Positions 2,707-4,459 of a DNA stretch of 45,457 bases are shown here, piece after piece. Source of the DNA: Candidatus Multivorans thiocomprendens (GTDB lineage: Bacteria; Acidobacteriota; Thermoanaerobaculia; Multivoradales; Multivoraceae). The stretch is from positions 1 to 45,457 of the forward strand of contig JAPVWO010000216.1 of the NCBI GenBank assembly GCA_027493375.1. The letters are read 5' to 3'. The position numbers and the translations under genes were made by a program. The stretch's first letter is position 1; the number at the start of each line of letters is the position of its first letter. The notes under the pieces were generated by a model. That model ran no database searches. It had not been told where the DNA came from and was given only the letters and a program-made list of their open reading frames with translations.

Positions 2707-3195
2707 CTACAGGTTGCGCCGGTAGCTGGCGCCCTGGCCCCGGGTCTCGGCCACGGTGACCTCGAGTGTTTCCACGCGGTCGCGATGAGAGTCCCATTGG
2801 TCCGCCAGGCGTTGCCAGAGCCACCGGGCCAGCGCCTCGACGGTCACGTTCGCTACCGGCAGCAGGACGACCTCCGATGACGGGAACTCGTATCGCCGCG
2901 TTCCGAACCTGGTGGTTACGGTCTCGTCGGATTGAGTCAGCTCCAGATGCGGGCACTCCTCCGGCAGCAGGACCTTCTCGTCGAGCTCCGCGCATTGCGA
3001 CCGGATGTCCCGCTTCGCCGCGGCGACCGGCACGAGGAACTCCAGCTCGTCCACCCCTGGACCGCCGAGTTCCACGCGCACCCGGTAGTTGTGTCCGTGA
3101 AGAGCCTCCGCCTCGTCCTCCGAGAACACCGTGAAATGAGCCGCGGAGAACTTGAAGTCCTCCTTGCCGAGGCGTAGTGAGTAGGTGCCGGACAC
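2707..3195 (-). CDS. 6-pyruvoyl-tetrahydropterin synthase family protein, ExxHGH (PTPS-III-like)
   Basis: A 162-residue T-fold pterin enzyme. The zinc ligands are visible as His20 (SAAHF), His33 and His35 (LHGHNYRV). The catalytic cysteine found before the HGH motif in QueD and classical PTPS is absent; instead the motif reads E30-A-L-H33-G-H35. That ExxHGH pattern is the hallmark of PTPS-III, which in some bacteria replaces FolB in folate synthesis by making 6-hydroxymethyl-dihydropterin. folE lies 640 bp away on the other strand, which fits. I chose GTG 3195 because the Thr-Tyr-Ser-Leu start of homology follows at once and further upstream is repeat DNA. The family is firm; PTPS-III assignment over QueD is inference from the motif. 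Confidence 0.82.
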   Translation of the reverse strand: MSGTYSLRLGKEDFKFSAAHFTVFSEDEAEALHGHNYRVRVELGGPGVDELEFLVPVAAAKRDIRSQCAELDEKVLLPEECPHLELTQSDETVTTRFGTRRYEFPSSEVVLLPVANVTVEALARWLWQRLADQWDSHRDRVETLEVTVAETRGQGASYRRNL

Positions 3196-3226
3196 GCCCC
3201 GATCGTAGCGTCCTGAAGAACCGGAT

Positions 3227-3444
3227 GCCGGCCAGAAGGCCGGCGCACCGACACCCAAGGCTTCGGATGCTCCCAGCCTCGCGGTCGCGGGCGTCGACAC
3301 GTCGGCCTTCGTGACCGACGGCCGACGACGACCAGTCCGCCCGGCGTTCCGGGGAAGGGTTCCCAACGGGCTGGAGCCAAGCGTCTCCCCGGATCGTCAC
3401 CCCGACCACCACCGAACCGCAGCGCAGGCGACCGAAGCGAGCGC
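3227..3444 (-). repeat. long dispersed repeat, right copy
   Basis: Reverse-complement partner of 2039-2210. Read on the minus strand it starts at 3444 with GCGCTCGCTTCGG and ends with a perfect 7-bp hairpin GCCGGCC/GGCCGGC (3227-3244, loop TTCT on this strand). The two copies point inward towards each other and bracket the DUF1330 and PTPS-family genes. The 3196-3548 stretch contains this copy and a further fragment at 3474-3513; I see no gene in it. Confidence 0.75.
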
Positions 3445-3548: not shown

Positions 3549-3776
3549 CTACAGCAGTTCGGCGACGGCGTGCTCGACTTCGCCGTTGTCGGGAAAGCGG
3601 CCGAGCTCTTTCTTGGAGAAGACGGGGCGGCCGTCGAGGGCGACCTCGAAGACGCCGCCGCCGCCGTCCATGAGTTCGGTGTCGAGGTCGAACCGCTCCT
3701 TCAACTGAGCCGCCAGACCGGCGGCTCGGGGGCGGTAGTTTCACATCACGCAGTATTCGATCGTGACTCGGCTCAT
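3549..3776 (-). CDS. SelW/Rdx-family selenoprotein with in-frame UGA (Sec12)
   Basis: Read from ATG 3776 with TGA at 3743-3741 as selenocysteine, this gives a complete 75-residue Rdx (SelT/SelW/SelH) domain ending at TAG 3551-3549. The redox motif is Cys9-Val-Met-Sec12 (CxxU) followed by NYRPRA. The rest is family-typical: a helix AAGLAAQLKERF, GGGGVFEVALDG, then VFSKKELGRFP and a final AVAELL helix. Length matches bacterial SelW-like proteins. Homology runs on both sides of the TGA, so this is not a chance stop. A hairpin with a GGUCU loop starts 13 nt after the TGA and has the form of a bacterial SECIS. The family is thioredoxin-like and thought to act in glutathione/thioredoxin-linked redox reactions. 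It is divergent from folE with 56 bp between starts. The host must encode SelA/B/C/D. Ordinary gene callers would miss or shorten it. Confidence 0.9.
3707..3727 (-). promoter_or_regulatory. bacterial SECIS element of the SelW-like gene
   Basis: On the minus strand, GAGCCGCC (3727-3720) and GGCGGCTC (3714-3707) form a perfect 8-bp stem with the five-base loop GGUCU (3719-3715). The first loop guanosine is 22 nt after the UGA, inside the distance range known for SelB-read bacterial SECIS hairpins, and a loop with GGU is the expected SelB contact. The E. coli fdhF SECIS loop, as I recall it, also contains GGUCU. Confidence 0.82.
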
Positions 3777-3815
3777 CGGATTCCGTCCCGGTTGTTGTCT
3801 GTGACCGCGAGCGAC

Positions 3816-3826
3816 TACGGTAGCAT
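3816..3826 (+). promoter_or_regulatory. candidate -10 region of folE
   Basis: TACGGT (3816-3821) and TAGCAT (3821-3826) overlap just upstream of the folE ATG at 3833; TTGTCT at 3795-3800 could be a -35 with a 15-20 bp spacer. If TAGCAT is used, transcription would begin at or next to the ATG, giving a leaderless mRNA. No Shine-Dalgarno sequence precedes the ATG. Confidence 0.4.
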
Positions 3827-3832
3827 GCGCCG

Positions 3833-4459
3833 ATGCGAATGCTGGAGCCGGTCGAGCAGTTCTCGACCCACGAAGTTGGTCCGCGGAGGGACCTCGATCC
3901 GGAGCGGGTGGCCCGCCTCGCGGAGCGCGTCCGCGCGATGCTGATCGAGCTCGGTCTCGATCTCGACGACCCCAATCTGAAGACCACCCATGAGCGAGTG
4001 GCCCGCATGTACCTGGAGATGTTCCGGGGGATGGACCAGGGCACCAAGCCGCGGGTCACGACCTTTCCCAACGACGAGAACTACCAGGCGATGGTGATGG
4101 AGAAGGACATCCCGTTCTACTCCATGTGTTCCCACCATCTCGTGCCCTTCTACGGTCACGCGCACATCGCCTACGTTCCCGGCGACAAGATCCTGGGCCT
4201 GTCCAAGTTCGCGCGCATCCTGGAGTTCTACGCCAAGCGGCCGCAGCTCCAGGAGCGGCTCACCGAGCAGGTCGTGAGCTTCCTGGATGACGAACTGCGG
4301 GTCCGCGGCGCGATGGTCGTGATCGAGGCCCGGCACCTCTGCGTCGAGATGCGCGGGGTCGAGAAGTCCGGCGTCATGACGGTGACGTCGGCGCTTCGCG
4401 GCATCTTCCATGAACGCCCGATTCGGGAAGAGTTCCTGGACCTGCTGAAGGGACGGTGA
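3833..4459 (+). CDS. folE: GTP cyclohydrolase I
   Basis: Converts GTP to 7,8-dihydroneopterin triphosphate, the first step of folate (and queuosine) synthesis, in the cytoplasm as a toroidal decamer. The 208-residue length is typical. Zinc ligands are visible at Cys99 and His102 (SMCSHHLVPF) and Cys170 (RHLCVEMRG); the GHAHIAY strand and the KSGVMTVTSALRG segment are family signatures. ATG 3833 has no obvious ribosome site but a -10 like hexamer 6 nt upstream; ATG 3839 is the alternative. The PTPS-family gene nearby would use its dephosphorylated product. The next gene begins 1 nt after the stop. Confidence 0.96.
   Translation: MRMLEPVEQFSTHEVGPRRDLDPERVARLAERVRAMLIELGLDLDDPNLKTTHERVARMYLEMFRGMDQGTKPRVTTFPNDENYQAMVMEKDIPFYSMCSHHLVPFYGHAHIAYVPGDKILGLSKFARILEFYAKRPQLQERLTEQVVSFLDDELRVRGAMVVIEARHLCVEMRGVEKSGVMTVTSALRGIFHERPIREEFLDLLKGR

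Follow-up and report, generated by a model that had tools for sequence, protein, structure and literature searches.

A SelW-like gene with an in-frame UGA

The window, that is the whole stretch of 45,457 nucleotides analysed here, carries on its minus strand a short gene of the SelW-like (Rdx) family whose frame contains one TGA. The features of this locus are the following, in window coordinates:

2707..3366, minus strand: 6-pyruvoyl tetrahydropterin synthase-like (PTPS-like) gene, downstream of the SelW-like gene and on the same strand; a neighbour conserved in the genus
3549..3776, minus strand: SelW-like (Rdx, PF10262) predicted selenoprotein coding sequence, 75 residues, selenocysteine (Sec) at position 12, TAG stop
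3707..3727, minus strand: predicted bacterial SECIS hairpin with a stem of 8 bp and the apical loop GGUCU (3719-3715), the UGA and the loop being 21 nt apart
3741..3743, minus strand: in-frame UGA, candidate Sec codon, Sec12 of C9-V-M-U12 (translation, conservation, alignment)
3750..3752, minus strand: Cys9 codon, partner Cys of the CxxU motif (translation, alignment)
3777..3832: intergenic region of 56 bp between the SelW-like gene and the divergent folE
3833..4459, plus strand: folE, GTP cyclohydrolase I, conserved neighbour in divergent orientation, outside the selenoprotein

The first-pass annotation had described a 75-codon frame running from an ATG at 3776 to a TAG at 3549 with a lone TGA at codon 12, and residues fitting the Rdx family on either side of it. 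Both points were reproduced. Translation of 3776-3549 gives MSRVTIEYCVMUNYRPRAAGLAAQLKERFDLDTELMDGGGGVFEVALDGRPVFSKKELGRFPDNGEVEHAVAELL*, the single TGA being codon 12 (3743-3741), and the read-through protein matched PF10262 across the UGA with 68.9 bits, against a gathering cut-off of 22.6 (E 4e-19, profile positions 1-72 of 74). A six-frame search of the source genome (339 contigs totalling 4.84 Mb, with 94.9% completeness) returned this gene, with 1 TGA inside, as the sole Rdx. No strong Shine-Dalgarno sequence was seen upstream of its ATG.

Alignment and predicted structure place the motif C9-V-M-U12 directly after strand 1 (strand at residues 3-9, helix at 15-29). An AlphaFold2 model, built with 15 homologues and with Cys substituted for Sec, reached a pLDDT of 96 and has an Rdx/thioredoxin-like fold, with TM values of 0.87-0.93 to SelW-related crystal structures. 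In this predicted structure, C9 lies at the end of strand 1 and U12 in the loop before helix 1, which is the redox site of the Rdx fold.

Open frames beyond a TGA are common in this GC-rich window, where an open stretch of at least 63 codons follows 34% of the TGAs, and the energy of the hairpin described below is only a moderate outlier relative to shuffles (z of -1.9), so that neither property is decisive alone. A loose screen of the window for a hairpin combined with a redox motif was passed by 11 of 469 TGAs, that of the SelW-like gene having the longest stem; such a screen is by itself not evidence. Support beyond chance comes from the Rdx match across the UGA, from the retention of the UGA in relatives and from the covariation of the hairpin.

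Conservation of the UGA and distribution of Cys forms

Rdx was found in 130 of 148 genomes (the source genome and its relatives), and the in-frame TGA in 128 of these 130. The two proteins without it begin downstream of that codon: one is frameshifted (genome G133, where CVSU is found upstream in another frame), and the other is devoid of the N-terminal part (G122). Among the 130 Rdx-bearing genomes, no member of the class had Cys at the Sec position. The nearest named protein matches, up to 96% identical, belong to MAGs titled Holophagales, Thermoanaerobaculia or Acidobacteria bacterium. It is from these titles that the source organism is taken to be an acidobacterium of the Thermoanaerobaculia type.

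Broken Rdx copies were encountered in fragmented assemblies, with a lost start (L110, in G122), a frameshift (L111, in G133) or a premature TAG (L064); these are probably assembly errors or decay. A second Rdx subfamily was also observed in relatives (L101-L109), with UGA in a CVSU, CTSU, CDTU or CQTU motif and a C-terminal segment of its own (such as LLGGGWPDP or LTSRPWP). Most of the genomes that carry it possess the first Rdx gene too.

In the wider phylum Acidobacteriota, Sec-form Rdx is frequent and Cys forms are few, with the motif CTQC (G198, G249, G164 and G284). At two of the corresponding loci (L076 and L078, out of L075-L078), the Cys form is preceded, within one open frame, by a NUDIX-like N-terminal domain, a putative fusion. 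Beyond the phylum, the Sec form occurs in records with the names Thermodesulfovibrionia, Planctomycetota, Desulfocapsa, Thermodesulfobacteriota and Gemmatimonadetes; Rhizobium (L074) has a Cys form. Cys homologues at position 12, which the first-pass annotation had proposed to look for, exist in other acidobacterial classes, in Rhizobium and in the PDB (Atu0228 and others). This distribution agrees with an earlier report that, in organisms using Sec, SelW-like selenoproteins have very few Cys homologues, if any (PMC1794560).

A covarying hairpin downstream of the UGA

The hairpin had been described as a perfect 8-bp stem bearing a GGUCU loop 22 nt past the TGA. Counting showed this to be exact, and fold prediction gave the same hairpin: the stem GAGCCGCC/GGCGGCUC (3727-3720 with 3714-3707) is an uninterrupted 8 bp, and the loop starts with a G at +22, counted from the UGA. 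The published model of bacterial SECIS elements has a loop of 3-9 nt, a stem of 4-16 bp, a G in the first two loop positions, a spacing of 16-37 nt and an MFE of at most -7.5 kcal/mol (PMC13188914). With a loop of 5 nt, a stem of 8 bp, GG, a spacing of 21 nt and -16.1 kcal/mol, the present hairpin lies within every one of these limits, which bears out its first-pass designation as a SECIS. An Rfam scan of the window gave no match at gathering thresholds, a result that has no bearing on the SECIS.

The core of the stem has five pairs, which over 58 distinct sequences were paired in 98.6% of cases. Three of the five show compensatory changes: C-G to U-A, G-U or G-C at pair 18-30, G-C to U-A at pair 19-29, and C-G to G-C or A-U at pair 21-27. 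The observed values were not equalled in any of 2000 shuffles of the columns, a result that is not a probability because the related sequences are not independent. As a control, sliding the pairing partner by 1-3 nt left 23-63% paired. Loop positions G23 and U26 were invariant. The outer three pairs of the window hairpin are only 22-67% paired among relatives, meaning that the functional element is the core and not the whole 8-bp stem.

A comparison of 16 distinct genus-level sequences gave a dS of 0.085 in codons 13-26, which contain the hairpin, versus 0.273 in codons 27-75. This reduction to about one third is what a constraint on the RNA would be expected to produce. Past the hairpin, dN/dS was 0.19, indicating purifying selection downstream of the UGA.

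Selenocysteine machinery and other UGA-containing genes

That the organism uses selenocysteine had been proposed from the window alone, and the search for selA, selB, selC and selD in the source genome proved positive. A tRNA-Sec was found (72.1 bits, anticodon TCA, i. e. UCA, by ARAGORN), together with selB (363 bits including the C-terminal piece, above the cut-off, N- and C-terminal parts present), selD (246 bits, free of internal stops) and selA (394 bits), the latter incomplete as it is interrupted at a contig end. Over the 148 genomes, selA was present in 139, and in 108 of the 109 of good quality, which makes Sec decoding near universal in this acidobacterial class.

Six of the 13 AhpC/TSA-family (peroxiredoxin-family) matches in the source genome contain one in-frame TGA. 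In the three genes that were read, on contigs C220, C272 and C226, the TGA stands at the active-site Cys, within TSGU (L114), UPYC (L116) and UPPC (L119) respectively, and the last two genes have a hairpin with a GGUCG loop. These TGAs at an active-site Cys provide independent support for Sec use. Judging from the AhpC/TSA genes, the organism seems to possess a sizeable selenoproteome. No selenoprotein of the formate dehydrogenase type was seen in the genome, none of its 4 molybdopterin oxidoreductases having an internal stop. UGA is otherwise an ordinary stop: 8 of the 12 other window genes examined end in TGA.

Reading of the locus and alternatives

We consider that 3549-3776 is a bacterial SelW-like (Rdx) selenoprotein gene, whose UGA is decoded as selenocysteine through SelB and the hairpin, with a probability of about 97%. 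SelB would bind the hairpin just 3′ of the UGA, with its GGUCU apical loop, and deliver Sec-tRNA-Sec to codon 12, where selenocysteine would be inserted in place of termination. Insertion in the cell is deduced here from the genomic data. The product would be a 75-residue protein of thioredoxin-like fold, with its CxxU pair in the loop that joins strand 1 to helix 1.

Could the TGA instead be a nonsense mutation in a pseudogene, or a sequencing error in the Cys codon of a Cys-form Rdx? The fragmentation of the assembly into 339 contigs, and the broken copies in G122, G133 and one named contig (L064), speak for such an error. However, the TGA occupies the same codon in 128 genomes, selection is purifying past it and the hairpin covaries. 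Conservation of the TGA refutes a nonsense mutation or an assembly error, and we give this explanation practically no credit. The presence of UGA within several conserved genes of the source genome might also suggest an altered genetic code, in which UGA is read genome-wide as Trp, Gly or Cys with no direction by a SECIS. This was rejected as well and is exceedingly improbable, given that TGA is still the usual stop of the neighbouring genes (8 of 12), that the Sec machinery is complete apart from the cut in selA, and that the internal UGAs whose place was read coincide with redox-active Cys positions.

A subtler possibility is that of a regulated stop, the gene producing chiefly an 11-residue leader peptide and Sec read-through occurring only when selenium is plentiful. 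Sec insertion in bacteria does compete with termination, which favours this idea; against it, nothing indicates a function for the 11-mer, and in the predicted structure its codons correspond to strand 1 of the Rdx fold. We therefore regard it as very unlikely. As to the activity of the selenoprotein, analogy with SelW and other CxxU proteins suggests a small oxidoreductase of the thiol/selenol type, which would probably be connected with glutathione or thioredoxin-type thiols.

Gene neighbourhood

In the genus, the SelW-like gene is divergent from folE, with the PTPS-like gene nearby. The divergent adjacency with folE was also observed in several families of the order (window 3549-4459, L022, L027, L032, L034, L036, L037, L051-L063, L065 and L066), and PTPS-like and GWxTD-domain genes are often found near the pair. 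Over all loci examined, folE was adjacent in 30 of 77, the 77 including some whose shortness or distance would keep it from view; the linkage is therefore a lead and not a proof of function. It is nevertheless a concrete lead on what a bacterial SelW-like protein does. Sec appears to be fixed in the SelW-like proteins of the class, no Cys reversion having been seen. That, in addition, the linkage to folE and the pterin synthase reflects a role in the redox protection or handling of reduced pterins is a speculative proposal, which we think rather unlikely; if true, this would be the first specific function for bacterial SelW.

Comparison with known systems

Mammalian SelW carries a CxxU motif, and the SECIS of E. 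coli fdhF has a GGUCU apical loop and a bulged U in its upper stem. The window hairpin has the same apical loop as fdhF, at a similar distance from the UGA; the bulged U is absent from it, its stem being a straight helix. The Rdx fold is shared, at a greater distance, with mammalian SelW (PDB 2npb) and MIEN1/C17orf37 (2ljk), with TM values of 0.68 and 0.75. The SECIS of mammalian SelW is of the eukaryotic kind and lies in the 3′ UTR, whereas that of the window gene lies just after the UGA.

The Cys-form Rdx proteins of known structure (PDB 2fa8, 2obk, 2ojl, 2oka, 2p0g and 3dex) have the same fold (TM about 0.9), and the CxxC of 3dex aligns with the CxxU of the window protein. They differ by Cys in place of Sec, so that no SECIS is needed, and by longer chains, of 103-108 residues versus 75.

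The closest known systems are the bacterial SelW-like selenoproteins (SELENOW-like, PF10262; PMC1088965, PMC1794560, PMC13188914), with which the window gene shares the family, the CxxU motif, a single Sec, a SECIS directly after the UGA and a small size. For these, a CxxU motif and an interaction with glutathione have been noted, the function being called unclear, and selenoprotein genes of this kind were reported to be almost universally misannotated (PMC1088965). The present gene is a well-supported example of those that stop-based gene callers tend to truncate or miss. SelW-like genes of Thermoanaerobaculia are not named in these three papers, and in the open-licence literature we found nothing specific on Sec or SelW in Thermoanaerobaculia or sponge Acidobacteriota. 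The family has been known for some 20 years, and the window gene adds a member to it with no departure from the known mechanism, leaving unchanged what is known of how selenocysteine is encoded. The find is genuine but ordinary, in an under-studied group of Acidobacteriota. Relative to the known bacterial SelW-like proteins, lineage alone differs: in this acidobacterial class, all the intact copies examined are Sec forms.
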